Assembly (NCBI GenBank): GCA_008933735.1
Contig: WBUL01000007.1
Location: 62,001 to 126,000 of the forward strand
Reading direction: 5' to 3'
Source of the DNA: Anaerolineae bacterium
GTDB taxonomy: Bacteria > Chloroflexota > Anaerolineae > Aggregatilineales > J027
Length of the DNA: 64,000 nucleotides
A program made the position numbers and the translations under genes. Under the pieces are notes generated by a model. That model saw only the letters and a program-made list of their open reading frames with translations, ran no database searches and was not told the origin of the DNA. Positions 29,467-55,850 of this stretch are shown here, piece after piece. Each line of letters opens with the position of its first letter. The stretch's first letter is position 1.

Positions 29467-29500
29467 AAGCCCCTCTCATCGTTGAGGGGCTTTTTTTCTT
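29467..29500 (+). terminator. Rho-independent terminator of the ECF/DUF4179 operon
   Basis: AAGCCCCTC/GAGGGGCTT forms a 9-bp stem with an 8-nt loop and a run of seven T's. The T run is on the plus strand only, so it serves the ECF operon more than the convergent PCW operon. Confidence 0.92.
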
Positions 29501-30111
29501 TACTGCCGCAGCCGGTAATACTCTGCGCTGCCAAAGCCGTGCCAGCGCGGAGTCCCTAGCGGCACCACCGGGTCTTCGTTCTCTTTGGGCGGCTGGCGCA
29601 TTTCAATCGCTCGAATCGGCATATCCGGGGTGATGCGGAACGAGCCGTCCGGCTGCACAGCATTTACCAGAATCCCACCTTCCTGCCAGTAGACGTAGGC
29701 TTCCGTTACCACGCGGCGGGGGCCCCGTCCGCCGAGGGTGCTGGCCGATGAAGCGAGGAATGCATACTGCGGCTCGCCATATACCAGGATCGCATCGCCC
29801 AGACGAAGCTGCCGCGTTGGGGTAACGTTCAGACGAAATCCTGCCAGAATCTGCCCGCCATAATTCCATGTCCGCCCGCTAAACATCCATGCTCCGTCCC
29901 GATTCGCCAGTGCCAGCCGCTCCTCAAAAATGAGAATCGCTTCTTCACCAGGACGAACACCATACCAGCACGGTAGTACACAATCGCCGGGGTCAAGATA
30001 ATTCGGTGGAATCGGTGTCAGCGCCCCCATGAAGCGGGCGCTGTAGACTGCGCTCAGGCTGCATCCATACGCGGCGATAAATCCCATCAAAATCAGCACA
30101 AAACCACGCAT
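29500..30111 (-). CDS. PCW-motif secreted protein, copy 1 (unknown family)
   Basis: A 203-aa protein of a tandem four-member family. Its ATG at 30111 overlaps the stop of copy 2 (TAATG), so it is translationally coupled; the ORF-track start is 48 bases too early. An N-terminal membrane or signal segment (MRGFVLILMGFIAAYGC) is followed by LDPGDCVLPCWYGVRPGEE (about residues 38-56), the family hallmark with two cysteines, and LRLGDAILVYGEPQY (about 103-117). The last 60 residues are specific to this copy. The cysteine after the signal (YGCSLS) could make it a lipoprotein, though the lipobox is poor. It is the last gene of a six-gene operon. No known domain was recognised. Confidence 0.78.
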   Translation of the reverse strand: MRGFVLILMGFIAAYGCSLSAVYSARFMGALTPIPPNYLDPGDCVLPCWYGVRPGEEAILIFEERLALANRDGAWMFSGRTWNYGGQILAGFRLNVTPTRQLRLGDAILVYGEPQYAFLASSASTLGGRGPRRVVTEAYVYWQEGGILVNAVQPDGSFRITPDMPIRAIEMRQPPKENEDPVVPLGTPRWHGFGSAEYYRLRQ

Positions 30112-30686
30112 TATTTCTCTCCAAACGGCTGCGCGGCTGTATACACACAGCCCTGCCACGCCACCGCATTAAAAGGCCGCGCGAAGTTTCCGTAGCGAAT
30201 CGACTCAATGGGTGATTCCACACTCAAACGTTTCGTGACAGGCACAAACAGGGTGATTTGTTCCTCTTCATAATAGAGTTGCAGCACTTTTTCCGTCCCA
30301 ACCTGACGCGCATCAATTGAAAATTGCAGGGTCTGATAATCTGGCTCGCCCAACGCCAGCAAAAAATCACCCAACCGAATTCCTGATGGCCGGATGAACA
30401 AATCACCGTTCTCTGGATGAAGCAAAATGATATGCTCATGCGCCATCAGCCAGGTATTTTTTGCGATTTCCTGGACACCTGAAAGCTGGCTGACCGCGCC
30501 ATGAACCTCCATGATGCTGGATTTTCCAGGACGAATCCCTGACCAGCAGGGTGAAACACAGCCCTCATCTGGCAGCACTGCCGCTAGGTAACTTGCCATG
30601 TACTCGTCCGCCCTATCACGCTGCACGAGCCATCCGGCAAAAACCGCCCCCCAGATGACCATCAGCCACAGTAAAAAACGCAACAC
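30111..30686 (-). CDS. PCW-motif membrane-anchored protein, copy 2
   Basis: A 191-aa family member with an N-terminal membrane anchor (MLRFLLWLMVIWGAVFAGWLV). The hallmark reads LPDEGCVSPCWSGIRPGKSS (about residues 38-57), followed by a helix and strands, then IRLGDFLLALGEPDYQTLQF (about 103-122) and VLQLYYEEEQITLFVPV (about 132-148). A third cysteine (WQGCVY) lies near the end. The two hallmark cysteines four residues apart could form a disulphide or bind a ligand outside the cell. It is placed between copies 3 and 1; the gap from copy 3 is 32 bases. Function unknown. Confidence 0.78.
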   Translation of the reverse strand: MLRFLLWLMVIWGAVFAGWLVQRDRADEYMASYLAAVLPDEGCVSPCWSGIRPGKSSIMEVHGAVSQLSGVQEIAKNTWLMAHEHIILLHPENGDLFIRPSGIRLGDFLLALGEPDYQTLQFSIDARQVGTEKVLQLYYEEEQITLFVPVTKRLSVESPIESIRYGNFARPFNAVAWQGCVYTAAQPFGEK

Positions 30687-30718
30687 TCAGGGTTCTCCAG
30701 TAAAAAAGCGTCGGGCTG

Positions 30719-31291
30719 TCACCGCCCATAGAGAGACAGCCAGGTAAAACCCTGCCACATGGCACAGGTCTTGGGGGTGCTGGGATGATAATACATAAAA
30801 CGAACCGGGGTGGCAGGATGCAGGCGAGCCCCGTGAAGGATGGGATCAGTGAAAATCTCCAGCCGATCCTCTTCGTAGAAAAAAATCAGGCGGGTTTCGA
30901 CCCCGGTTGCCAGCCGCACACAGTCAGGATTACCCAACCTTGCAAACAACTCTCCCAAAGTCACCTGTCCGGATATATCGAGCATCACCTGTGTGACGAT
31001 CCGTGAACGGGTGCTGATAATCACGTAGGAGGTATAAAACCGCTGTCCATCCGGGGAAAACTCCTTGCTGCCAGCCCCGTCACGGGCATTTGGGAGGGTG
31101 CTCAACAGGGTATGTACATGCTCATCCTTCGTATTAACCTGAATCCCATACCAGCAGGGGGCCAGACAGGAGTCATCCGGCAGCAAAATCTGTATGTCCC
31201 GCGGAGCAGATGTCTTTGTCATCAGCGCTGCGCCACACAAGAAAAGCACCATGATAAACAGGCCTACCGTCAGCACCCCAAAGCGTACCAT
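30719..31291 (-). CDS. PCW-motif membrane-anchored protein, copy 3
   Basis: A 190-aa family member with an N-terminal hydrophobic segment (MVRFGVLTVGLFIMVLFLCGAALM). The hallmark reads LLPDDSCLAPCWYGIQVNTK (about residues 34-53), followed by VTLGELFARLGNPDCVRLA (about 111-129) and RLIFFYEEDRLEIF. Compared with the other copies the PG after GI(R) is missing, and the EPDY of LGEPDY reads NPDC. A fourth and fifth cysteine (NPDC, TCAMWQG) give more possible disulphides. Its start directly follows the stop of copy 4 with no spacing, so coupling is likely. Function unknown. Confidence 0.78.
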   Translation of the reverse strand: MVRFGVLTVGLFIMVLFLCGAALMTKTSAPRDIQILLPDDSCLAPCWYGIQVNTKDEHVHTLLSTLPNARDGAGSKEFSPDGQRFYTSYVIISTRSRIVTQVMLDISGQVTLGELFARLGNPDCVRLATGVETRLIFFYEEDRLEIFTDPILHGARLHPATPVRFMYYHPSTPKTCAMWQGFTWLSLYGR

Positions 31292-31858
31292 TTATTCCAC
31301 CACCGGCGGATACTTCGCCAGCCAGATCGCACCCAGCCACTCCCATGAATAAAAAGGCTGTGCATAATAATTGTCAGGATATTCAAACGCGGCAAGCGGC
31401 ATTTCTACAGATACACGCCCCTGTGATGATACCGACACCAGCACAATCACCTGCTGTTTTTCATAGTACAGGGAAATCAGTTTTTCTTTTGCGCCCGTGT
31501 TCAAATTCACAGCGGCCTGCTGCGTCTGATAATCGGGTTCTCCCATCGCTGCCAGAATATCGCCCAGCCGGACATGCGGTGCCAGCAGGGTTAAACTGCT
31601 CAGAAACCAGGCAATGTATACCTCATCTTCATAGGTAAACCTCCAGGCGTAGTCCTGAATCGGCTGCGCGTCAGGAAGCTGGTTCAAGATCACGGTTCCT
31701 TCTTCTTTGGATGTCACAACAGAACGAATCCCTCGCCAGCACGGAGCAGTACAGGTGTCATCCGGCAGCAAAACAGCAACCGCAGGCGGTGTTCCAGCCC
31801 GTAAACCGGCTTCCCTTGCTGTCATCACCCCTGCACCAACCATCCCGACCAGCACCAT
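31292..31858 (-). CDS. PCW-motif membrane-anchored protein, copy 4
   Basis: A 188-aa family member. ATG 31858 is chosen because AGAGGAG, embedded in the last codons of the preceding gene, lies 11 bases upstream; the GTG at 31897 would start inside that gene. An N-terminal anchor (MVLVGMVGAGVMTAREAG) is followed by the hallmark LLPDDTCTAPCWRGIRSV (about residues 29-46), VRLGDILAAMGEPDYQTQQ (about 105-123) and KLISLYYEKQQVIVLVSV. It is most like copy 2, suggesting recent duplication of these two. It lies 8 bases after the large secreted protein gene 31867-33054, within one operon. Function unknown. Confidence 0.78.
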   Translation of the reverse strand: MVLVGMVGAGVMTAREAGLRAGTPPAVAVLLPDDTCTAPCWRGIRSVVTSKEEGTVILNQLPDAQPIQDYAWRFTYEDEVYIAWFLSSLTLLAPHVRLGDILAAMGEPDYQTQQAAVNLNTGAKEKLISLYYEKQQVIVLVSVSSQGRVSVEMPLAAFEYPDNYYAQPFYSWEWLGAIWLAKYPPVVE

Positions 31859-31866
31859 CAGCCAGA

Positions 31867-33054
31867 TTACTCCTCTAATTGGAACATCGCTCCCCACACA
31901 TTATCAAACACCAGCGTTTTGTCATTCACCCGAATGCGTGTGAGAAAATCCAGCCAGACCTGGTCATAAGTATCATCGGCGGCTTCATAGCGCACCCACA
32001 GCAGTCCTCCGTTAAACGGCAGTTCAGCGACGATTAACGCTCCAGAACTTTCCTCCGTTTCGATCTTCCCTGCCGCCGCCAGCAGCGTGTCCCAGGAAAA
32101 CAACACGGTCTTGCTGATTTCCTCCTGCTGATTCAGCAAATCCAGGACACTCACGTAATTCGCTGGCAGCAGCGAGACACGCATGGAAATCGTCGCCGAT
32201 CCATCTGGTGTCTGTGCGGTGACCACCAGTACATCCTCGTCTTCCAGAACAACCCAATCTGGTGGCGCGGAGGTCGTAATACCATTTTGAATGAATCGCA
32301 GCCCCATCGGTTCGCCCACTTCAACCGGATCAAAGGTCAGCGCCCCGGCAGGCAGCGTAGTCCCTGCCTCAAATCGCTCCACCAAGCTGTCCGCAGGTTC
32401 AAAGCTGACTAACAGTTGGGCAATGTTCTCCTCAAATTCGAGCGGCTGCTCGTTCAGTTTGAGGGTTCCCAGCAGCATATTTCCCATCGCCAGCAAGTCA
32501 ATCCAGTTTTCCGCTGGGGCTTCAAAAAGAATGATGGCAAGTTCATCCCCTTCTACCAAGGTCGCAAACGACAGCGACAGCACATGCTCATATTGTTCAA
32601 AACGAGGATTCGTATTTTGTTCGATATACAGCATCAACGCCGCTCGCTGGCTGCCATCCCGCAGTGCGACCGGGTCGGCGTAAGCGCCTTCCTGTTTCAA
32701 GCCCCTGAAGGAGGCATATTTTTCGTAATAGTCCAGTGCCGGATTCAGCGCTTCGGTATCAAACTGGATTTCCAACTGGTCAGCGGGACGCAGAATCATT
32801 TGTATCTGAATGGGTGTTTCACCCGGCTGTAATTCAGAAATATTTGTCATGATGCCGTATGGGGTGGGTGACTCCGTCACAGACTGCTCCCAGCCTTCTG
32901 GCACCCCCAGGCTAAATTCAGTGCTGCCGCTGCGAAGGATCATTTCGCCCGCGATGGGAGGAATCTCCATTTGGGCCAGCACAGCCGAGGGCAAAAGCCA
33001 GAGGACAATGAACAGGGCAGCCACCCTATAGCCTTTTCTGAAAGGATCATTCAT
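31867..33054 (-). CDS. Large secreted protein with two P..W beta domains
   Basis: A 395-aa exported protein; TAAGGAG lies 9 bases before ATG 33054, and the signal peptide is MNDPFRKGYRVAALFIVLWLLPSAVLAQ. Two halves begin alike: STEFSLGVPEGWEQSVTES (about residues 44-62) and LRFIQNGITTSAPPDWVVLEDEDVLVV (about 245-271; joined). Both look like compact beta domains of the PsbP/Mog1-like style, with IQIQMILRPAD and ATISMRVSLLPAN as matching strand pairs. No enzyme motif is seen. It stands second in the operon, 13 bases after the similar gene 33068-34321 and 8 before the first PCW gene, so the six proteins probably act together at the cell surface. Confidence 0.8.
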   Translation of the reverse strand: MNDPFRKGYRVAALFIVLWLLPSAVLAQMEIPPIAGEMILRSGSTEFSLGVPEGWEQSVTESPTPYGIMTNISELQPGETPIQIQMILRPADQLEIQFDTEALNPALDYYEKYASFRGLKQEGAYADPVALRDGSQRAALMLYIEQNTNPRFEQYEHVLSLSFATLVEGDELAIILFEAPAENWIDLLAMGNMLLGTLKLNEQPLEFEENIAQLLVSFEPADSLVERFEAGTTLPAGALTFDPVEVGEPMGLRFIQNGITTSAPPDWVVLEDEDVLVVTAQTPDGSATISMRVSLLPANYVSVLDLLNQQEEISKTVLFSWDTLLAAAGKIETEESSGALIVAELPFNGGLLWVRYEAADDTYDQVWLDFLTRIRVNDKTLVFDNVWGAMFQLEE

Positions 33055-37687: not shown

Positions 37688-38698
37688 TTATTCCCTGTCC
37701 AGCCGCCACGCGGTCCACTTGAAGAAAACATGGATCAGGCCAAAGGGGATCATAATATATGATAGAAAAATAGTCCCGAACACAACCGCATAGAGTCCAG
37801 TATGTTCGATGGATGAAAACGCACGATGGGTGCTGATTTCCCCCAGGCCAAGCGCGGGCAGCCATTCCCAGAATACCGCTATCCCTGCCAGTTCAATAAA
37901 AGAGGGCAAAACCGGAGGGCGCGAACGATCCCAGGAGTAGTCCGATTTGACAGCAAGCTCGCTGTACAACAGGTACATAATCACCCACCCCGCCAGACCA
38001 AGCATCACCCGCATCACAAGAGCACCGACAAAACTTGCAGCGATGGCAAAACCCGGACGGTTGATGTAACTGCTCACCAGTCCACTCATGGAGGCGACCA
38101 GTCCGGCTTCCATAAGCGGGACAGCAACCCACATCGCCAGTAAGGGCAGCCCCGCCAGGAAAAAGGACAGGCCGGGCATCCGCTGCAAACAGGGTTCGGC
38201 ATAACAGTAACGGGAAGAGGCGGAGGTTTCCGCCAGCAGCAGCATAAAAAACACCGTTGCGATGCCCCATTGTGTAATTATGAGTCCTTTCAGCAGCGGC
38301 CAGACCTGCCACCCCATCGCCACCAACTGCGTATGCAGCCACTGGGTTTTAGGCATAGGGATCAGGCGGATTAAATCCCAGTCCCCTGTCTGGCGGCGGG
38401 CACTGATCGCGGACGCCAGCCGCGACGCCGACGACCAGACAAGCCGCCAGCGTGCAGCGATACTGTATACCCAGAAAATGAACAGCGGCGCGGCGCATAC
38501 ACCTACACAGGGCGACAGCAGCGCCAGCCCAGACACCATCACCAGGGTAACTGCCACGACCCCATTGACCAGGCACGGCGACTCCCCAAGGGAGCTTCCA
38601 TGCCGGATTTCATAGGTGGTCAGGACATCATAGCGTCGCTGCATAGGAGCCAGCAGTGCCCGCAAAACGGAAAAACCGTTGTGTTCCTGGGAGTTCAT
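37688..38698 (-). CDS. ABC-2-like membrane protein, copy 1 of a four-member array
   Basis: A 336-aa polytopic membrane protein. The array's two hallmarks are present: an N-terminal TYEIRHG (about residues 29-35), matching the P(L/V)V.YEIR of the others, and ARRQTGDWDLIRLIPMPKTQWLHTQLVAMGWQVWPLLKGLIITQ (about 100-143; joined). The position and look of the second match the E.E.GTLELLL.TP segment of ABC-2 type permeases, and about six membrane segments fit. This copy has the least conserved N-terminus. It is the last gene of the operon, 10 bases after the DUF89 gene. No ATPase is nearby, so transport is not proven. Confidence 0.78.
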   Translation of the reverse strand: MNSQEHNGFSVLRALLAPMQRRYDVLTTYEIRHGSSLGESPCLVNGVVAVTLVMVSGLALLSPCVGVCAAPLFIFWVYSIAARWRLVWSSASRLASAISARRQTGDWDLIRLIPMPKTQWLHTQLVAMGWQVWPLLKGLIITQWGIATVFFMLLLAETSASSRYCYAEPCLQRMPGLSFFLAGLPLLAMWVAVPLMEAGLVASMSGLVSSYINRPGFAIAASFVGALVMRVMLGLAGWVIMYLLYSELAVKSDYSWDRSRPPVLPSFIELAGIAVFWEWLPALGLGEISTHRAFSSIEHTGLYAVVFGTIFLSYIMIPFGLIHVFFKWTAWRLDRE

Positions 38699-38708
38699 GT
38701 CTCGCGCA

Positions 38709-39830
38709 TCACAGTTTGCTTTGTATTACACCGCGCTGCCCATTAATCCGCCAGTTTTTGTCGATACTGTCCAGTCTGGCATAACTGCCCACCGGAAAAC
38801 CAACCGTTGGGTCGCTTTTCAGCGTTCGCAGGGTGGCAACAGGAGCAGGGAAATAATCCAGGGCGTCAGCAAATGCGACACCTTCCGGCCAGATGGCATC
38901 CCCAATCATACGGCGATGATTAGCATCTCCCTTAAAAATCACCAGCGCGGCTTTTTCAAAGGTTTTCCGCAGACGCAACGGCATTTCCCACACAAAGCGC
39001 GGGCTGTTCCAGAAGCCGTCCGGCGCCAAGCGCAAACGTCCATCATCAAAAGCGGTTTGTAAACGCTGACCGAAAGCAGTAAACGCGGGTTTCTGTGCGA
39101 CCCGCCGCAGAAAATCCCATACATCCGCCACTACCACATCACTTACAAAGACCGGATGCAGTTTGACGTGCAGCACAACCTTATGCCGTTTGAGCAGCTC
39201 ATCAATCAGGGCAGCATCCATCGTGAATTCTGTGCCATAATTATCCGCCACCAGATGCACTTCACCGCTTGTGCCCCGAAGATGTGACAGAATTTTTTCG
39301 GTATCATCCACCAGCAAATCTTCAGCATCTGCATGAGCGCCCCGCCCCACAGCAATCTCATAACTTAAATCAATCCGGTTGCCCCACAGCGCCAGATGTA
39401 AGCGGCGTTCCAAATCGGCATTCAGCGCCTGCTCCAGCAAATTCCAGGGCGACTCGCTGTTCATTTCGAGTGCTTTCTTGGGGCCAAACGGGTCACGCTG
39501 CGTTTCCCACCAGCGCACGGCCTCGATCACCCGCCGATAGAAGATATGCTCGGCATAAAACCAGCCCGTATTTAGCCAGGTATCCTTCCGGTAAGGCTCA
39601 GAGGCGGAAAGCCAGTCATCATGATCCGGCGCCGGATATTCCGGCAGGCGAATCGGCGCATCATTCATTAACTCAAAACGCAGTTTTTTTAGCGCATCCT
39701 GAATCGCGGGGTGATAATCAGGATTGAGCTTCAGAATTTCGTCAACTATCCCTGGCGCACGGCGGCGCATCGTGTCGTTTCCAAAAGCATTACTCTCGTC
39801 CGTGCGGACGGGGGGAGGCGGAGTCAGCAT
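38709..39830 (-). CDS. ARMT1/DUF89-family metal-dependent phosphatase
   Basis: A 373-aa protein of the DUF89 (damage-control phosphatase) family, class III-like, with AAAGGA upstream of ATG 39830. Family motifs are clear: NTGWFYAEHIFYRRVIEAVRWWE (about residues 83-105; joined), LHLALWGNRIDLSYEIA (about 142-158, metal-binding Asn and Asp), VHLVADNYGTEFTMDAALIDEL (about 190-211, catalytic Asp-Asn; joined), VVLHVKLHPVFVSDV and VIFKGDANHRRMIGD (about 311-325). Known members remove harmful phosphorylated metabolites such as sugar phosphates; an O-methyltransferase role has been claimed for the human protein. It sits inside the ABC-2-like array, between copies 2 and 1, which is an unexpected setting. 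Confidence 0.9.
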   Translation of the reverse strand: MLTPPPPVRTDESNAFGNDTMRRRAPGIVDEILKLNPDYHPAIQDALKKLRFELMNDAPIRLPEYPAPDHDDWLSASEPYRKDTWLNTGWFYAEHIFYRRVIEAVRWWETQRDPFGPKKALEMNSESPWNLLEQALNADLERRLHLALWGNRIDLSYEIAVGRGAHADAEDLLVDDTEKILSHLRGTSGEVHLVADNYGTEFTMDAALIDELLKRHKVVLHVKLHPVFVSDVVVADVWDFLRRVAQKPAFTAFGQRLQTAFDDGRLRLAPDGFWNSPRFVWEMPLRLRKTFEKAALVIFKGDANHRRMIGDAIWPEGVAFADALDYFPAPVATLRTLKSDPTVGFPVGSYARLDSIDKNWRINGQRGVIQSKL

Positions 39831-39864
39831 ACGATCGGTCCTTTTTCATCCAAACGCCTTAATT

Positions 39865-40932
39865 CTAGCGCCTTGCCATATGAGTTAAAGCCTGTTTTAT
39901 TGCACGGGACATACCATCCAGCGGCAAAAATCCAAAAGCAAAAGCAAAAAAGCCCAGACAGGCCACAAAAATCAGCGCGTGGGAAAGATAGGTCACCTCC
40001 AGCGTCAACCCCCAGACAGCCAGCCAGGGCAGCCAGTTCCACGTAAAAAAACAGATCGGAAGATGTAACAACCATCCGAGTATTCCTATGACCATCAGGA
40101 GCACGAAAGTCACCACAAAGCCATCGCCCAGATGAAAAAACAGTCCGAATGCTGTTAACAACAGCGGCAGGCCGAACAAGATATTCGCGGATGAACCCAC
40201 ATGAATTTTCATTGTGTTCCCGAAACTCCTGAACAGGGCAAAGGAGGGATTTTTACTGCATACACTGGCGTGAAGGGCCGCTGTGGAAAACACCCCTGTC
40301 TCGATCAGCGGCAGGCAAATCACCATCATGCAGAACGGCAGCGCCACCAGGAAAAACATCCACGTGGGCAGGTAATGGGCATCCGGAATGAGATCAGTCA
40401 GCAAGAAATCGTCTAATTTCTCTCCCTGCCAGCGCTGATGCTGTTGGGCACTCATATAGAGCAGTGCCACACCCGTAAAAACTGCCTGCCCGATTATCAG
40501 ATTCCGCACCAGCGGCCACACCTGCCAGCTTATGGCGGTAAGTTGGAGTTCCAGCCAGCGTGCTTTTGGAATTGGCGTGATGAGAATCAAATCCCAATCA
40601 CCACGTTCACGTCGCACGGTAATCATCCTGGCAGCACGCCCACTGATGGCGACAAAAAGCCGCAGCCGCGAAAGGATCAGATAGACGGCTAACCCGCCCA
40701 GCGCCCCCTGACCAACTACCGGCCAACTGAAACCGTAGCTCTGAAGAGCAAACAGCAGTATCAGCAGAGTCAGTCCCATGATTGATGGGATCAGCCAGCG
40801 CCATTCACGCGGGCGTTCCGATTGGCGAATTTCATACTGCACCAGAGGATGATCCAGATTCTTCCAGAGCGGCAGCACCGTCAGGAAAATCTGCTTACGG
40901 GTCAATTGACCCTCATCTGGTGAAATTCGCAC
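39865..40932 (-). CDS. ABC-2-like membrane protein, copy 2
   Basis: A 355-aa polytopic membrane protein of the array. The N-terminal part reads LWKNLDHPLVQYEIRQSERP (about residues 22-41), and the central hallmark is TVRRERGDWDLILITPIPKARWLELQLTAISWQVWPLVRNLIIGQ (about 103-147; joined). About six to seven membrane segments follow in two groups. It is most like copy 3, with the shared arrangement DEGQLTR..I...LP(L)W.NL.HPLV. Its ATG lies 4 bases after the stop of copy 3. The DUF89 gene follows 34 bases downstream. As in the other copies no nucleotide-binding domain is present in the protein. Confidence 0.8.
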   Translation of the reverse strand: MRISPDEGQLTRKQIFLTVLPLWKNLDHPLVQYEIRQSERPREWRWLIPSIMGLTLLILLFALQSYGFSWPVVGQGALGGLAVYLILSRLRLFVAISGRAARMITVRRERGDWDLILITPIPKARWLELQLTAISWQVWPLVRNLIIGQAVFTGVALLYMSAQQHQRWQGEKLDDFLLTDLIPDAHYLPTWMFFLVALPFCMMVICLPLIETGVFSTAALHASVCSKNPSFALFRSFGNTMKIHVGSSANILFGLPLLLTAFGLFFHLGDGFVVTFVLLMVIGILGWLLHLPICFFTWNWLPWLAVWGLTLEVTYLSHALIFVACLGFFAFAFGFLPLDGMSRAIKQALTHMARR

Positions 40933-40936
40933 AGGG

Positions 40937-42064
40937 TCAGTCTCGTCGGCTCAAACGATGCAGCGCTGAAGTCAAAAATCCGCGAGTACTTTCTATCGGA
41001 GCATAGGTGTAGCTGTAAGGCAGGGTCAGCAGAAATGCCAGAAAGATCACGACATGCACCAGATAGGGCATTTCCATCGTCAGCGCCAGAATCCCAATCC
41101 AGGGCAGCCATTCCCACACGAGCGCCAGGAAAACAACGGGAATGCCATAAGCAAGCAGCGTTCCCACCATGATAAAACCGGAGGCAAGTCCTACCGCCAG
41201 TCGTACATCCATCCCGTTAAATTCCTGAGGGAACAGCGTTCCCAGGATCACGATCAGTACCATCATTGCCAGCGGCGTGACGACAACAAACACCACCGTT
41301 GAAACAATCCGCCCGATCCCCAGGTAAATGACCGCCCGGAGAAGCGAAAAAGCGGCCATCCGGCTTTCCGCGCTCGCGTTTAAAACCGCCGACGCATACA
41401 ACCCAACCTCCGCCAGCGGAATCAGGGTCGCCAGGGCACCGATGGGCAGAGCCAGCGCGACAAAAATCCAGGCTGGAAGATAATGCGCGTTAGGGTCGGG
41501 AAGATATTGATAAGAATCCGAGAACGCTTCATTTTGATAAGAGTCATGCTGCGCCACACCCAGATAGCCAATCGCCAGCAGCATGAACACCGCGTGGATT
41601 ATCATCAGACCCCGCACAAGCGGCCAGGTCTGCCAGATGAGCGCAGTCACCTGTAAATTCACCCAGCGCGACTTGGGAATCGGTGTCAGCATGATTAAAT
41701 CCCAGTCGCCGCGCTCTCGCCGCAGGGTAATCATTCGAGTCGCCTGCTCCGCCAGCGCGACCAACAGCCGCAGCCGCCCCAGCACCAGGTACGCCAGCAG
41801 CCCTGCCAGCATGGTGACCCACAGAGCTTTCCAACTTCGCCCACCGATCAACACAACAGCGATCATGGCCGATAGGGTGATAATCGTGACGGTAATTCCC
41901 AGCCAGGGCCGCGTACCGCGCCGGCGAGTCTGTCGAATTTCGTATCGCACCAGGGGATGAGTCAGATTTTCCCAGGGTGGGAAGACAGCCTGCCATACTT
42001 CGTCACGGCTCAGCCGCCCCTCAAAAGGGGTAAATGGATAGAGCGCCGGATTTTTTCGTTTCAT
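40937..42064 (-). CDS. ABC-2-like membrane protein, copy 3
   Basis: A 375-aa polytopic membrane protein. I start it at ATG 42064 (MKRKNPALYPF), whose ATGA overlaps the stop of copy 4; the ORF-track start runs into that gene. Hallmarks: FPPWENLTHPLVRYEIRQTRRRG (about residues 30-52; joined) and TLRRERGDWDLIMLTPIPKSRWVNLQVTALIWQTWPLVRGLMIIH (about 115-159; joined). About six membrane segments are predicted. A PYSYTYAPIESTRGFL segment near the C-terminus is specific to this copy. Translation is probably coupled on both sides, so equal amounts of the paralogues are expected, consistent with a heteromeric complex. That is inference. Confidence 0.8.
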   Translation of the reverse strand: MKRKNPALYPFTPFEGRLSRDEVWQAVFPPWENLTHPLVRYEIRQTRRRGTRPWLGITVTIITLSAMIAVVLIGGRSWKALWVTMLAGLLAYLVLGRLRLLVALAEQATRMITLRRERGDWDLIMLTPIPKSRWVNLQVTALIWQTWPLVRGLMIIHAVFMLLAIGYLGVAQHDSYQNEAFSDSYQYLPDPNAHYLPAWIFVALALPIGALATLIPLAEVGLYASAVLNASAESRMAAFSLLRAVIYLGIGRIVSTVVFVVVTPLAMMVLIVILGTLFPQEFNGMDVRLAVGLASGFIMVGTLLAYGIPVVFLALVWEWLPWIGILALTMEMPYLVHVVIFLAFLLTLPYSYTYAPIESTRGFLTSALHRLSRRD

Positions 42065-43179
42065 CGTTCGCGCATTTGCAGCCGCCGCACCGTCCTTGCT
42101 GCCAGTGAACGGATCAGCAGCAGCGGCGTCGCCACATAGGTGGTCAACCCTGTACACATGATCGAAAGATACAGCAGGATATGTTCAGAAACGCGGGCTT
42201 CTGTTGACACCATCAACGGCCCCAGCGCAGGCAGCCACTCTACAAAAAACGACGTGATCGGCACTGCAATACAGGTATACAGCGAAAACCCCAGCACACT
42301 CGCCCCTCCGAAGTCGCCCAAATCATTATTCGGACTGAAGGTAAAGAAAAACACAACAAAAAACAGCCCGGCGTAGAAAAACACAGCAGCGATAATGGAG
42401 CGGATGAAAAAAATCCCCAGAAAGTTATATAACATCGCCATCGCGGGATGCTTGCTTAAGGTGCTGATGTAAAAACTGAGCGCGGCCAGAACCGCCACCA
42501 TCATGAGAGGTTCCAGGATCAGGGCGGCAAAAATGGGAAACGTCAGGATCATATATACGGGCAGCGGTAGATAACGATACGAGGAGCCTTCGTAATAATA
42601 ACGATCCCCGCGGTCGTCATAGCGGTCGTAGAGGATGACCCCAACGAAGATCAGAACCAGCACCGTCTGAATTATCATGAGATTGCGGACGAGCGGCCAC
42701 ACCTGCCAGCCCAGGCCGATCAACTGCGCTCGCAGCCAGCGGGCTTTGGGCATCGGCGTAATCGCAATCAGTTCCCAGTCGCCGCGCAGCCGCCGTTCTG
42801 TGACCACCTTTGCCGCCCGTGAAAATACCGCCAGCACCAACCGCCAGTGCCCATAAATCACTCCCAGACTCAGCACTACCGCCACAATCCCGACCATCGG
42901 GCCAATGAATGCCCCTATAAACTGGGTTTCAAGCTCGCCGTATGCCAGCATTCCTGCTGCGTACAAAATTTCCCCGATCAACACCAGATACGCCATCACA
43001 ACCAGCATCCAGGGACGGCTGCCCGTGCGCTGGCTGCGCCGAATCTGGTACACCACCAGGGGGTCATCCAGCGTTTGCCCAACCGGAATGACCGCGCGGA
43101 TAAACGACCAGGGATTGATGGGGCTGGGAAAATATTCGGTGACGGCGCGGCGTTTTAAGGAGGGTTTAGCTTCAAGCAT
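42061..43179 (-). CDS. ABC-2-like membrane protein, copy 4 (first gene of the array)
   Basis: A 372-aa polytopic membrane protein and the promoter-proximal member of the array. The N-terminal part reads VGQTLDDPLVVYQIRRSQRTG (about residues 32-52; joined) and the central hallmark VTERRLRGDWELIAITPMPKARWLRAQLIGLGWQVWPLVRNLMIIQ (about 125-170; joined). An acidic, tyrosine-rich outside loop follows (YDRYDDRGDRYYYEGSSYRY, about 182-201), seen in no other copy. About seven membrane segments are predicted. Its stop overlaps the ATG of copy 3. Upstream is a 315-base intergenic region that probably holds the operon's promoter. Confidence 0.8.
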   Translation of the reverse strand: MLEAKPSLKRRAVTEYFPSPINPWSFIRAVIPVGQTLDDPLVVYQIRRSQRTGSRPWMLVVMAYLVLIGEILYAAGMLAYGELETQFIGAFIGPMVGIVAVVLSLGVIYGHWRLVLAVFSRAAKVVTERRLRGDWELIAITPMPKARWLRAQLIGLGWQVWPLVRNLMIIQTVLVLIFVGVILYDRYDDRGDRYYYEGSSYRYLPLPVYMILTFPIFAALILEPLMMVAVLAALSFYISTLSKHPAMAMLYNFLGIFFIRSIIAAVFFYAGLFFVVFFFTFSPNNDLGDFGGASVLGFSLYTCIAVPITSFFVEWLPALGPLMVSTEARVSEHILLYLSIMCTGLTTYVATPLLLIRSLAARTVRRLQMRER

Positions 43180-43494
43180 TCACAGTATCCTGTACCATAA
43201 CAGACATGCCCATTATGGCACAGGTTCGCGGATTCGCAGAAGCACCTGAGTGTTCTGAGGGACTATTTTCCTATCTGGATCTTATGCGAGTTCTCACAGA
43301 GGTCAGGCAAATACCCCTGAGTGGGCAGGTCTTCGTTCGCTGTGTGCACTCAGCCCCCCGATTTTCGTAGGGGCGCGGTCTTAAGCGGGTAAAAATCGCC
43401 GATTTTTACCCGTGTGACCCGCCCGCCAATGGAGGAAAGCAGATCGCAGGGAGATGACACTTACAGTTAAGGCTCGCTTAACTAGCACAAGACT
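43180..43494. other. 315-base intergenic region with palindrome, no gene seen
   Basis: This gap lies between the start of the ABC-2-like operon and the 3' end of the MurF-Alr gene. ORFs here are shadows. It holds a perfect 13-bp palindrome (43386-43412) and a short 7-bp inverted repeat (AGTTAAG/CTTAACT, 43465-43483). No tRNA cloverleaf or other RNA family was recognised. It probably contains the operon promoter, but I could not assign -35/-10 elements. Confidence 0.6.
43386..43412. repeat. Perfect 13-bp inverted repeat
   Basis: CGGGTAAAAATCG and CGATTTTTACCCG flank a single C, a near-continuous palindrome. As the central A/T runs are inside the stem it is not a normal terminator; a protein-binding operator or a small RNA hairpin are alternatives. 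Confidence 0.7.
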
Positions 43495-46053
43495 CTATTT
43501 GGTACGCGAAGCACGCGGCATGATCATGCTGATCACTTCGTAGTTGAGTGTATTCAGGAAATCGGCGGCGTCTTCTGCCGTGATTTTTTCTTCGCCCTGT
43601 TCGCCAATTAACACGACTTCATCGCCCACCCGGACATCATCAATATCCGTTACATCCACCGTGCACTGGTAAATATCCACATTGCCAATCAGTGGCGCTC
43701 GTTTGCCTTTGACCAGCACATACGTCCAGGGCAGCGGCCCTACCCGAAAACCGCTGGAATAACCGACAGGCAGCACCGCCACCGTGCGTGTTGTGTCCGA
43801 GGCGACCAGTCCGATTAAATTAGTAGACACACGCTTTAACTGCACAATTGTGGTTTTCCAGGACAGCGCGGTTTTGAAATCCGGTGGGAGTTCGTAACGC
43901 CCCGGATACAGGCCATACAGTGCTGCGCCACAGCGCACCATGTTAAATCGCGCTTCCGGGATATGCAGCGCGGGGCCGGACGCTGCTGCATGAACATACT
44001 GGAACTGCGCGTTAATGGTTTTGAGCATGTTAATGGTTTCATCAAATTCGTTTAACTGGCGGATGGCATCCTGCCGTTCTATGGTGGAGGCGATATGCGT
44101 GTAAATGCCTTCCAGATGAATCCGGTCAAGCTTATGCAGCCCTCGGACAAACTGCGGTACTTCATCACGCATCAAGCCCATGCTGCTTCTGCTCACATCA
44201 ATGCGGATGTGGGCTTTGATGGTGCGGTCCAGTTCGGCGGCGGCCTGGTTGAAGGCTTTTGCCGTGTTCAGATCATAAATGGAAATGGTCAGATCGTGCC
44301 GCACCACCTGACGTGCCGCATAGGGAACCGTGTATCCCATAATCAGAATCGGCTTAGTGATACCCGCCCGCCGCAGTTGGAGTGCTTCGTCAATCGAGGT
44401 CAAACCAAGATAATCCGCCCCGTTTAAACCGGCAGTGGTACTGACGGGAATCGCGCCGTGCCCGTAGGCATCGGTTTTCACAACCGCCATCAGGGTACAC
44501 TGCGCCCCGATAATTTCTTTGATCCGTTTAACGTTGTGGGCGACCGCAGCCGTATCGACATGCACCCAGGTCGGGCTCATCGGGCGGGTTGTCCAGTCCG
44601 AATCAAGCGCAGTGTCCTGACGCGGCAGCACCATCACATCTTCAGGATTATTCAGCAGCGCGGCGACGACACGCTCCATCCGTGCTGACCGGTTGCCCTT
44701 GACCAACACAAGGTCTTTCGGCCCTAAACGGTTGCGAATAGCGGTGGCAGCATCCTGCGCGGAAAATGTGATGTGCGTACTGGTGAGGGGGAACCCCTTG
44801 TCCAACGCGGCCCGGACTGCATTCGCTGCATCGTCCCCTTCGGAAACTACTTCCGTCGCCACTTCTGCCAGGCTGGCGCCAATTTCCAGGTAGCTCTGCG
44901 GGCGGCGTTCACTCGTATCGGCAATATCGCCCAGCACCACAAAGATTTTCCCTCGTGGGCTGACCAATCCCATTTGAGTTTCTTTAATGGATGGCTGGGG
45001 ACGCAGTGCTTTGAGCCATTCCAGCACCAGCAGCATATCATCCGGCGTGGTGTCGTAGGTATCGTCAATGAGCTGGCACCGGTTTACCCCTACCAGAGGG
45101 CGCATTCTTCCGGGAAGAGGTTCCAACTGGGTCAGGGCATTCAGGCTGTTTTCCAGCGGCACTTCAAAGGACAACCCCACGCACAGCGCCGACAGCACCG
45201 CGTATAAATTGTGTGCTCCCAGCAGCCGCACCCATTTAGCGATAAAACGCTGGTTGCCATAACGCAAATCGAATCCGGTTTTATCCAGCGCCTGGATAAT
45301 ATTATAGGCGGTCAGGTCTGCCCCAAAGGATGTCCCTTGTTTATCAACGCTGATCGTTAATTTGGGAACACGACATTGAATCTCTCGCACCAGGGCATCA
45401 TCGTAATTCAGCACAGCGAGGCCATCCTGCGGCAAATTTTCGATGAGGACTCGTTCTTCCGGGATAGCAGTTTTGCTGGCTTTCGTCGGGTTGATATTGG
45501 TCACTACACCGACCGTTGAGGGAGCAGCGGTAATCATTTCCGCCATTTCCCCCGCTTGGGTACTGTCATACTCCAGAACAGCAATTTCATGCTGTTTGGT
45601 CAACTGCCCCAGCGCTAACGGGAGCGCGAACCGCCCCGGAATATTTACCCGTCCGGTATACACCTGATAACGAAGCCGCAGCACCTGACTGATAGCTTCT
45701 TTGGTCGTGGATTTGCCATAACTACCCGCTACTGTGACGACAGTCGTGCCAAACTTGCTTAGCACATAATTTGTCCAGCGCATCAGAGCCGCCTCAACAT
45801 CATGCATGATGATGACGGTGATACCCTGCGTATCAAAAGTGGGGGGATGTTTGCACATGAGGCCGGTTGCACCTGCCCTCACGGCGTCCTCCATGAAGTG
45901 GTGTCCATCACCACGCTCTGTCTTGAGCGCAACAAACAAATCGCCAGACTTCACCTGACGGGATTCAAAGCAAAATCCGTTAAAAATCTGGGCTACTGGC
46001 TCACCAAAAAGCTGACCATCCGCCGCATCCAGAATATCGTAAAGATTAATCAT
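43495..46053 (-). CDS. MurF-Alr fusion protein (D-Ala-D-Ala ligase/alanine racemase) with altered active sites
   Basis: An 852-aa fusion as known in Bacteroidetes and some others. Residues 1-460 resemble MurF, which adds D-Ala-D-Ala to UDP-MurNAc-tripeptide: the ATP loop is TVAGSYGKSTTKEAI (about 105-119), but the usual TN(I/V)..AH reads TNINPTKAS, without the His. Residues about 485-852 resemble alanine racemase: the PLP lysine is kept in AVVKTDAYGHG. Other usual catalytic features are changed: the DTGM.R.G motif is DVSRSSMG, the GY(G/S) catalytic tyrosine segment reads IGLVASDTT and is a few residues shorter, and GR(I/V)CMD is GNVDIYQ. Either activity could be lost or changed. It is transcribed away from the response-regulator gene. 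Confidence 0.88.
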   Translation of the reverse strand: MINLYDILDAADGQLFGEPVAQIFNGFCFESRQVKSGDLFVALKTERGDGHHFMEDAVRAGATGLMCKHPPTFDTQGITVIIMHDVEAALMRWTNYVLSKFGTTVVTVAGSYGKSTTKEAISQVLRLRYQVYTGRVNIPGRFALPLALGQLTKQHEIAVLEYDSTQAGEMAEMITAAPSTVGVVTNINPTKASKTAIPEERVLIENLPQDGLAVLNYDDALVREIQCRVPKLTISVDKQGTSFGADLTAYNIIQALDKTGFDLRYGNQRFIAKWVRLLGAHNLYAVLSALCVGLSFEVPLENSLNALTQLEPLPGRMRPLVGVNRCQLIDDTYDTTPDDMLLVLEWLKALRPQPSIKETQMGLVSPRGKIFVVLGDIADTSERRPQSYLEIGASLAEVATEVVSEGDDAANAVRAALDKGFPLTSTHITFSAQDAATAIRNRLGPKDLVLVKGNRSARMERVVAALLNNPEDVMVLPRQDTALDSDWTTRPMSPTWVHVDTAAVAHNVKRIKEIIGAQCTLMAVVKTDAYGHGAIPVSTTAGLNGADYLGLTSIDEALQLRRAGITKPILIMGYTVPYAARQVVRHDLTISIYDLNTAKAFNQAAAELDRTIKAHIRIDVSRSSMGLMRDEVPQFVRGLHKLDRIHLEGIYTHIASTIERQDAIRQLNEFDETINMLKTINAQFQYVHAAASGPALHIPEARFNMVRCGAALYGLYPGRYELPPDFKTALSWKTTIVQLKRVSTNLIGLVASDTTRTVAVLPVGYSSGFRVGPLPWTYVLVKGKRAPLIGNVDIYQCTVDVTDIDDVRVGDEVVLIGEQGEEKITAEDAADFLNTLNYEVISMIMPRASRTK

Positions 46054-52559: not shown

Positions 52560-55500
52560 TTACTTCCTGCGTATCGGAAAACGCGAGAGCACCGTGACCG
52601 ACTGCGGGGCCGTGACTTTATCACCCATTTTGAGGTCAGTGATCCCTTTGCCATCTTTAGAACTGCCGACATTGGCATAGACCATCAACTCCGTGCCCTC
52701 GGCGGCAAATTTGTCCTTCACCAGTGCCTGCCCGATGTGATAGCCTTCCAGCCCTAACGCACAGGAGGTCACCTGCCCGACCACACGTCCACGAGCATCG
52801 ACCAGAGGGTCACCGGGAACTGGTGATCGCAGCCCCTTGGCGTCCACCTGGAAGCGGACGGTTTCCACATCGCGTTTGGCTTCATAGTCCAGGAAGGCAG
52901 TTTTACCCACAAAAAACGGCTTCCATGTTTTGACATAGCTGCCAAAACCCGCGTCCGCCGGATTCATATTCAAATGACCGGCCAGCTCATGCCCATACAG
53001 CGGAAGACCGGCTTCCGTTCGCAGACTGTCCCGCGAGGCCAGACCACAGGGGGTAACCCCTTTTTCGACCATGAGCTTGAAGAAAGAGGCCGCCTTTTCA
53101 GGATGAACAAAAATTTCAAAGGCGACTCGTTCACCTGTATATCCGGTACGGGAGATAATCAAATCATAGCCCGCCAGCGTCACCTGGGTCAGTTCCGCCC
53201 AGCCAAGCTTTTTGACCTTCGCTTTATCCGCCTCGCTGCCATCCAGCGTGAGCAGATAATCCACACTCTTGGGGCCTTGCAGCGCGATGTCCACTCGTCC
53301 ATCGGCTAACCCTGGCGCTCGCAAATCGCGTAAGGTGGTCATCTTACGTCCTGGCGCTTTAATCCAGGGACGTTCATTACTGATGCGAACCTCGCCTTTC
53401 AGCACCGCATTCAGCCACGCCCAATCCTTGTCATTGTTGGACGCATTCACAACCATCATAAAATGATCTTTGCCGCGCCGATAGATAAAAATATCATCCA
53501 AGGGAATGCCGTCCGGGGCAAGCAAATAACTGTAATGGGCTTTGCCAACGTCCAATTTGGAAACATCATTGGCGGTCACAGCATCCAGAAAAGCCTCAGC
53601 GCCTGCGCCGGAGACATCAAACACCCCCATGTGCGACACATCAAAAATGCCTGCATCCGTCCGCACAGCCCTGTGCTCATCCGTCACCGACGCATACCAG
53701 ACCGGCATATCATAGCCGCCAAAACCAACCATCTTGGCGCCCAACGATTTATGCAGGCTGTGAAGCGGTGTGGTTTTCAGGGTATCGCTGTCCGGTTCGT
53801 TCCATTCAAAGACGGGCAGGACATTCCCTTTTGGCCCTTGGTAACTGCGGCCTGTACAGCCCACAAAGTAGGCTTTATCTGACGCAAATCCAATGCCCTC
53901 AAAAGCCCAATCTTTATCAAAACCCGCCTCTGCAAACCGCGTCATATCCGGTTCACGGGTGAGCGGACTCACCGAGACCGGCCCCGGCACCTTAGACTGA
54001 ACATCATGTTCGTCAAACTGAACGTACCCATCCGACAGGGCGGTCAGCCACTGCACCACGTAGTCGAGACATTCTTCCACGTACAGCAGATAGACATGGT
54101 CACCTTTACGTTCCACAATACCGCGTGAGATGTAGGTACCATTCATTTCAAGGATAAAGGTCGGCTGCCAGTCACCATTTTTCATGCCCAGCACATCACA
54201 GGTCAGCACCGTCTGGAGAAAAGGTGCCGCAGATTCGCCGTAAATATGAATGGTCGACCAGGGGGCACTTTCATAGTGGTCGTCTACAGGCAGCACACGG
54301 AAATGTTCTTCAGCGGCGTCAGCCTCTTTGGGATAATTTACCAGACTGGGAATTTCATAATCGATTCCGGCTTCCGTCGCCAGCTTATTCACGCGCTGCT
54401 GCACATCCACAAATACATCAAAATCAACCTTTGCCCGCCAATTTTTGACGGTGTTGTTCTTCATGTAGCTGAACGGTTTGCAGGCAAACAACAAATCGGC
54501 GATTGCGTCGGTCAGTTCGATACATTCTGACTCTCGAAAGCCGCGCTGGGTAATCCAGGGCGTGCCGAACCGAACCCCCGTCGCCCGGAAGGGCGAGGTA
54601 TCACCGGGGATGGTATTACGATTTGCCACTACCCCCGCAACATCCAGGAGTCGTGCCGCAATGTCACCTGATAAGGGCGAACCGTCCGCACCTTTGATCT
54701 GCCCCACATCCACCAGGAACATATGGGTATTGGTGCCGCCATACGGGATTCGCAGGCCCCGTTCCTGAAACCGAGCAACCATTGTTTTCGCATTTTTCGC
54801 CGTCTGGTGCTGCAATTCGTGAAACTGTTTCGTTCCGGCAATTTTCATAGCAACGGCCAGCGCCGCAATTGTATTTACGTGCGGCCCGCCCTGTTCCCCT
54901 GGGAACACCGCCCGGTCAATTTTGCGGGCGAGATCGCGCTTATGGGTCACTAATACAGCCGCCCGCGGGCCATTCAGGGTTTTGTGGGTGGTAAAACTGA
55001 CAATATCCGCAATCCCGACGGGTGACGGATACACCCCCGCTGCGACTAACCCCGCTACATGGGACATGTCGGCAAGCACCAGACTGCCTGCTTCATCGGC
55101 AATTTCACGGAACAACTTCCAATCAGGTGCCCAGGGATAGGAGGTATACCCCGCGATAATAAACTTAGGACGGTGCTTGAGCGCCAGGTCTCGAATCTGG
55201 TCGTAATCCAAGCGCTCGGTTTGGGGGTCAACACCATAGGCCACCACATTAAAAAAGATGCCGCTCCGGTTCACAGGGCTGCCATGTGTCAGATGTCCAC
55301 CGTCGGTCAGGTTTAAACCCATGATGGTATCACCAGGCAGGGCAAGGGCTGTATAAACAGCACTGTTGGCGGGTGCGCCGGAAAGCGGCTGCACATTCAC
55401 ATACAGCCTGTCCGGGCCGTACTTTTCGGTCGCAAACCGTTCGGCAGTACGGCGGCGGGCCAGACTTTCGACGACTTCCGCCATTTCCGTGCCTTTATAG

Positions 55501-55781
55501 TAGCGCGGGCTCCCATCGCGCCGAAACTCAGCCAGCCGAACATCCAGATCCAGCAGGCCTTCTTCGCTCATAAACCGCCAGTGTTCCGGCGGATAACCTT
55601 CCGCATAGATATTACTGAGTACTGACCCGACTGCTTCACGCACCGCCAGTGGAATCGACGATTCTGACGGGATCAAAATGAGCTTACGCGCCTGACGAAT
55701 CGCCTCAAAATCCACCAGCGCGGCGACATCGGGGTCAATACTGGCAAGGTCGCCACGAAATAAGAAATCATCCATCGGCAT
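52560..55781 (-). CDS. Serine hydroxymethyltransferase-GcvT (aminomethyltransferase) fusion
   Basis: A 1073-aa fusion joining two one-carbon enzymes. Residues 5-465 are SHMT, which converts serine to glycine with tetrahydrofolate: [37 protein letters not shown] and the PLP lysine in [12 protein letters not shown] (about 265-276). Residues about 680-1070 are GcvT, the T-protein of the glycine cleavage system: [48 protein letters not shown] and [11 protein letters not shown] middle part of about 200 residues contains a truncated GcvT-like piece ([30 protein letters not shown]). SHMT alone is about 415-430 aa and GcvT about 365. AAGGAG lies 13 bases before ATG 55781; ATG 55793 has it only 1 base away. 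No gcvH or gcvP is nearby. Confidence 0.92.
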
Positions 55782-55850
55782 AAGTGCGATCATTCTCCTT
55801 AATATGTTTTGATCGACTCTGTCGATTTTAGCGTGGCTTACGTTTTTTTT

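Follow-up and report, generated by a model that had tools for sequence, protein, structure and literature searches.

A tandem array of four ABC-2-type transmembrane proteins without an adjacent ATPase in an Anaerolineae genome

In type V ABC transporters, two transmembrane halves work together and the coupling helix is where the ATP-binding subunit docks; an ABC-2 subunit lacking its ATPase is generally regarded as inert. The elbow helix is a further trait of type V transporters (PMC8386196). The closest known systems are the ABC-2 or type V transmembrane domains (TMDs) of ABC2_membrane_2 (PF12679), such as NosY of the NosDFY transporter. They have an N-terminal elbow-helix motif (NPVVLKELR, compared with HPLVRYEIR) in common with four membrane proteins, A–D, encoded in one array within the 64-kb window of Anaerolineae DNA analyzed here. 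With ABC-2 and type V TMDs in general, A–D also share the TM2-TM3 coupling-helix loop, the predicted fold and a positive-inside topology, but they have no ATPase in the operon or the window, fall below every Pfam cut-off and occur as four diverged tandem copies. A second described system is relevant to the gene lodged among them: the ARMT1 phosphatases of fission yeast (SPCC1393.13) and budding yeast (YMR027W) have the motifs DNxGxE and KGDxNxR in common with the DUF89 protein of the window, which differs from them in being a bacterial gene inside a membrane-protein array, apparently by chance.

The array (43179-37688) consists of five adjacent, tightly packed minus-strand genes in the order A, B, C, DUF89, D (Table 1). 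A sequence-only reading of this DNA had described four paralogous membrane proteins together with a DUF89 gene, and all five genes were confirmed at the positions it gave, with the four paralogs intact. It had also called the genes translationally coupled, which is exact for A/B, where the ATG of B and the stop codon of A overlap as ATGA, and likely for B/C (gap of 4 bp) and DUF89/D (10 bp), while C and DUF89 are separated by a small gap of 34 bp with an AAGGA-like site. Gene B also appears in the open reading frame list in a longer GTG form reaching 42157. Pairwise identity among A–D is 26-39%, and their pairwise BLAST scores of 89-237 bits, compared with at most 22 bits for shuffled copies, place the paralogy far above chance. 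Approximately 40 columns are invariant across the four proteins, all four frames are intact and the base composition is that of the neighboring genes, i.e., native. The motif R..GDW(D/E)LI..(T/I)P(M/I)PK..W is present in all four, as proposed earlier, whereas P(L/V)V.YEIR, proposed for the same set, is found in B and C and, as YQIR, in A; D retains YEIR only (VLTTYEIR).

The next gene upstream of the array, 316 bases away, is a murF-alr fusion encoding an 852-aa MurF-alanine racemase, and an inverted repeat (GGGTAAAAATCG/CGATTTTTACCC) was spotted by eye in the gap between it and gene A. A MurJ-like gene lies on the strand opposite to murF-alr. Elsewhere in the window, an aminomethyltransferase (GcvT) domain is fused to serine hydroxymethyltransferase in a 1077-aa protein.

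Table 1. Coordinates of the array, the secreted-protein genes and other features of the window
Feature	Position in window	Strand	Description
w1	29500-30159	-	CxxPCWxG protein; membrane-anchored secreted
w2	30111-30686	-	CxxPCWxG protein; membrane-anchored secreted
w3	30719-31291	-	CxxPCWxG protein; membrane-anchored secreted
w4	31292-31897	-	CxxPCWxG protein; membrane-anchored secreted
MurJ-like gene	34338-36041		
Gene D	37688..38698	-	336 aa ABC-2-like membrane protein; most diverged of A–D
DUF89 gene	38709..39830	-	373 aa DUF89/ARMT1-like damage-control phosphatase; motifs intact
Gene C	39865..40932	-	355 aa ABC-2-like membrane protein; GTG start; sister of B
Gene B	40937..42064	-	375 aa ABC-2-like membrane protein; ATG start
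Gene A	42061..43179	-	372 aa ABC-2-like membrane protein; PLVVYQIR; RLRGDWELIAITPMPKARW
Inverted repeat	43370-43415		murF-alr/gene A gap
murF-alr	43495-46053		MurF-alanine racemase fusion
1077-aa protein	52560-55793		Serine hydroxymethyltransferase-GcvT fusion

A–D are ABC-2-like in ancestry and predicted fold. None of the four reached a family in Pfam or NCBIfam, a profile of A–D alone recovered just weak relatives, and a sequence search of solved structures gave unrelated helical matches only, e.g., designed repeat proteins; the homology to ABC-2 permeases runs through intermediates. A–D match their relatives by BLAST with E values of 1e-5 to 1e-8, and four of these relatives (G014, G001, G053 and G052) match PF12679, with G014 above the cut-off; G014 and G053 match PF12730 as well. 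A profile of 29 family members was aligned by hhalign with L164, an ABC-2 permease encoded in the same genome next to its own ATPase (E 4.8e-6, Prob 86). The alignment pairs HPLVRYEIRQTRRR with NPVVLKELRGRMRG at the elbow-helix motif and RRERGDWDLIMLTP with GERERQTYDLLRTT at the coupling-helix motif, and L164 is also a direct match of the family profile (E 1.1e-6). A MurJ control gave Prob 0.1 against the same profile. A second permease, the NosY-like L171, gave an insignificant match, and the four-sequence profile A1 reached just E 0.03 against the ATPase-linked permease; the ABC-2 link therefore needs the wider family.

Structure prediction led to the same group. The AlphaFold model of B (pLDDT 75, pTM 0.72) was used for a Foldseek search in which the seven best matches were all NosY (probability 1.00, E 0.01-0.05), with modest TM-scores of 0.32-0.35 by query and 0.42-0.46 by target. 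Hydropathy gives 6-7 segments, where the type V fold has six TM helices. In A–C, the loop carrying the GDW motif holds 7-10 Arg/Lys residues, compared with 0-2 in the loop between TM1 and TM2, which makes a cytoplasmic position of the GDW loop probable; judged by hydropathy and charge, the second motif would be on the cytoplasmic side. The two motifs singled out by the sequence-only reading are exactly those paired by hhalign, and they correspond to the elbow-helix region (first motif) and to the coupling-helix loop (second motif) of one half of a type V transporter. The ABC-2-like descent suggested by the sequence-only reading, with two motifs at the right places, is thus borne out by BLAST, by Pfam via the relatives, by hhalign and by Foldseek.

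The same reading had noted that no ATPase accompanies the array, and a search of the operon and the whole 64-kb window turned up no ABC ATPase gene; the nearest matches on the contig (C20:12.5 kb and C20:48.9 kb) fall outside the window. Because no cognate ATP-binding subunit is encoded adjacent to them, A–D are classed here as ABC-2-type TMDs and not as an ABC transporter. Nor did an ABC ATPase adjoin a family member in any of the neighborhoods read, although one homolog, L050 (G014:C311), has a complete ABC-2 system a few genes away. The same-strand run at L050 contains an ABC-2 ATPase, two permeases and an rlmI-like methyltransferase gene. None of the 13 CcmA/DrrA-type ATPases examined in the window's own genome is an orphan, each being encoded next to its own permease, which makes a shared ATPase partner an assumption, and with an assembly completeness of 81.5%, an orphan ATPase could be missing.

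A–D form one clade (support 100/100) on a long common stem, within which B and C group together (99/99). When 396 genomes of the class were searched with profile A1, the array turned up in a single one, that of the window; a search of genome_contigs and viral contigs for the array found nothing, and neither did a plasmid search with B alone. A wider profile detected homologs in most genomes of the order (136 of 154), generally 1-3 per genome, although the weakest of these matches may be ordinary ABC-2 permeases. The named relatives are Chloroflexota metagenome-assembled genomes throughout. Shorter arrays, of three and two copies, occur in G035 (L149/L048) and G065 (L082), respectively. The window's own genome encodes two additional members, both on contig 11: L103 lies near addA, and L200 immediately follows a gene for an AddB-like nuclease. 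The nearest sequences to A–D outside the clade, in a weakly supported grouping, are two homologs (L052 and L115) that, like A–D, have no ATPase; they have weak PF12679 matches and, unlike A–D, are single copies beside argS. A–D are most likely a four-copy expansion, specific to this lineage, of a poorly known family found widely in one Anaerolineae order, probably Aggregatilineales.

Four small membrane-anchored secreted proteins, w1–w4, are encoded in tandem 6 kb from the array (29500..31897) and are the only copies found in this genome. They carry CxxPCWxG together with LGDxxAAxGxPD, and the CW(x)G proteins found with relatives likewise carry an LGDVxAAxGxPD motif. A gene for such a CW/PCWxG protein lies directly downstream of the family member in 7 of 52 relatives, coordinates add G002 and G015 to the relatives with this neighbor, and in G021 the CW/PCWxG protein is fused to the ABC-2-like part. 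No Pfam family was matched by w1–w4. AlphaFold suggests a mixed alpha/beta domain for the PCWxG protein, and a fold search with it gave no clear match (best probability ~0.5). It is possible that w1–w4 are extracytoplasmic partners of A–D.

The explanation we favor, with about as much confidence as doubt, is that A–D are stand-alone ABC-2 transmembrane subunits, expanded to four, that act in pairs with an ATPase supplied in trans and with secreted partners, the DUF89 gene being separate. The conserved cytoplasmic GDW(D/E)LI..TPxPK loop would still dock an ATP-binding subunit encoded elsewhere; pairing and borrowing of an ATPase is the likeliest course because few parts of A–D are as well conserved as this docking loop. 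The proteins could pair as homo- or heterodimers, with B and C the likeliest hetero-pair, and would export or flip some substrate, while the small CW/PCWxG proteins encoded nearby might act on the outer face. By analogy with ABC-2 subunits, which work in pairs, a heteromeric complex of A–D is possible. The most promising locus for finding an ATPase used in this way is L050.

The main rival is ATP-free use, and the evidence does not decide between it and an ATPase in trans. Here the ATPase would have been lost for good and the ABC-2 fold exapted as a scaffold, sensor or anchor, which we consider a serious but less probable alternative. It agrees with the homologs read without an adjacent ATPase, with the lack of an orphan CcmA/DrrA-type ATPase among those examined and with the rewriting of the motif, which reads GDWDL or TWDNL instead of GTLELL. 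The coupling-helix motif might then be reused for another cytoplasmic protein, for which, in many relatives, the AddAB helicase-nuclease encoded upstream is a tentative candidate, held with the same reserve. The addA gene lies directly upstream of 32 of the 51 family members that have upstream sequence, often with a 4-base overlap, and Pfam confirmed the identity of this AddA through its UvrD and PD-(D/E)XK domains. What speaks against exaptation is that the loop remains conserved at the site at which an ABC-2 permease docks its ATPase and can still be aligned with that of a genuine permease, and that the L050 homolog shares its same-strand run with a complete ABC-2 system. The A–D array, moreover, is not near addAB, and operon neighborhood alone is no proof of contact.

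The gene order addB-addA-(ABC-2-like), with frequent ATGA overlaps, is conserved across this bacterial order and was seen at L118-L138, L140, L149, L151, L152 and others, and in the window's own genome at L103 and L200. These addAB-linked homologs resemble A–D in belonging to the same family by profile search, in length and in having no ATPase; they differ in that most occur as one copy, the motifs take the forms WARPxHP and TWD(N/S)L, and identity to B is ~15-20%. A broader version, in which an order-wide, ATPase-free ABC-2-fold family is usually made with AddAB and sometimes with, or fused to, the CW/PCWxG domain, and in which the window encodes a four-subunit complex with four secreted partners, appears rather unlikely to us; if true, such an AddAB-linked family would deserve more interest than a plain expansion.

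The DUF89 protein has a clear ARMT1-like domain and is a predicted damage-control phosphatase. Its match to PF01937 scores 167.6 bits (E 5.2e-49), where the curated cut-off is 25, and D196, N197, E201, D231, K300-G301-D302, N304, R306 and K338 are at least 95% conserved across 42 sequences; we take these residues to be its metal/catalytic motifs. DNxGxE and KGDxNxR align with the yeast enzymes of solved structure. DUF89 is common in the order (104 of 154 genomes), yet the nine other genomes of the window's family all lack it; it had no conserved neighbor across the 20 loci examined, and it was seen with the membrane family in this genome alone. In three genomes of a different, single family (L058, L059 and L070), ABC-2 systems lie near DUF89 on the opposite strand, an arrangement observed in that family only. 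A functional link, which the sequence-only reading had left unexplained, is not supported, as the membrane family is common without DUF89 and its members are almost everywhere single genes lacking it, the very finding that this reading had named as refuting its proposal. Its position between C and D is most likely incidental, that of a bystander: a separate housekeeping metabolite-repair gene that would have come to lie in the transcription unit by chance.

A single module of array and DUF89, in which, for instance, damaged phosphorylated metabolites would be exported by the one and dephosphorylated by the other, would fit the tight spacing within one minus-strand unit and the intact DUF89 motifs; we regard it as very improbable in view of the wide occurrence of DUF89 without a conserved neighbor, a membrane family widespread without it and a pairing seen in no second genome. 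As a candidate functional partner, DUF89 was ruled out by the census and the neighborhood comparison. That A–D are duplicates evolving neutrally or in decay, with no particular function, as their restriction to one genome and high divergence might suggest, is highly unlikely, since the intact frames, invariant columns, native composition, tight overlapping gene order and long common stem point to long purifying selection.

Literature searches yielded no description of ABC-2 families lacking an ATPase in this order, and A–D and proteins like them, which are covered by no Pfam or NCBIfam model, are given a context by the comparison presented here. A conserved, order-wide family that retains the ATPase-docking loop and yet is encoded alone, frequently alongside the addAB DNA-repair genes, offers a test case for distinguishing ATPases shared in trans from a repurposed channel fold.
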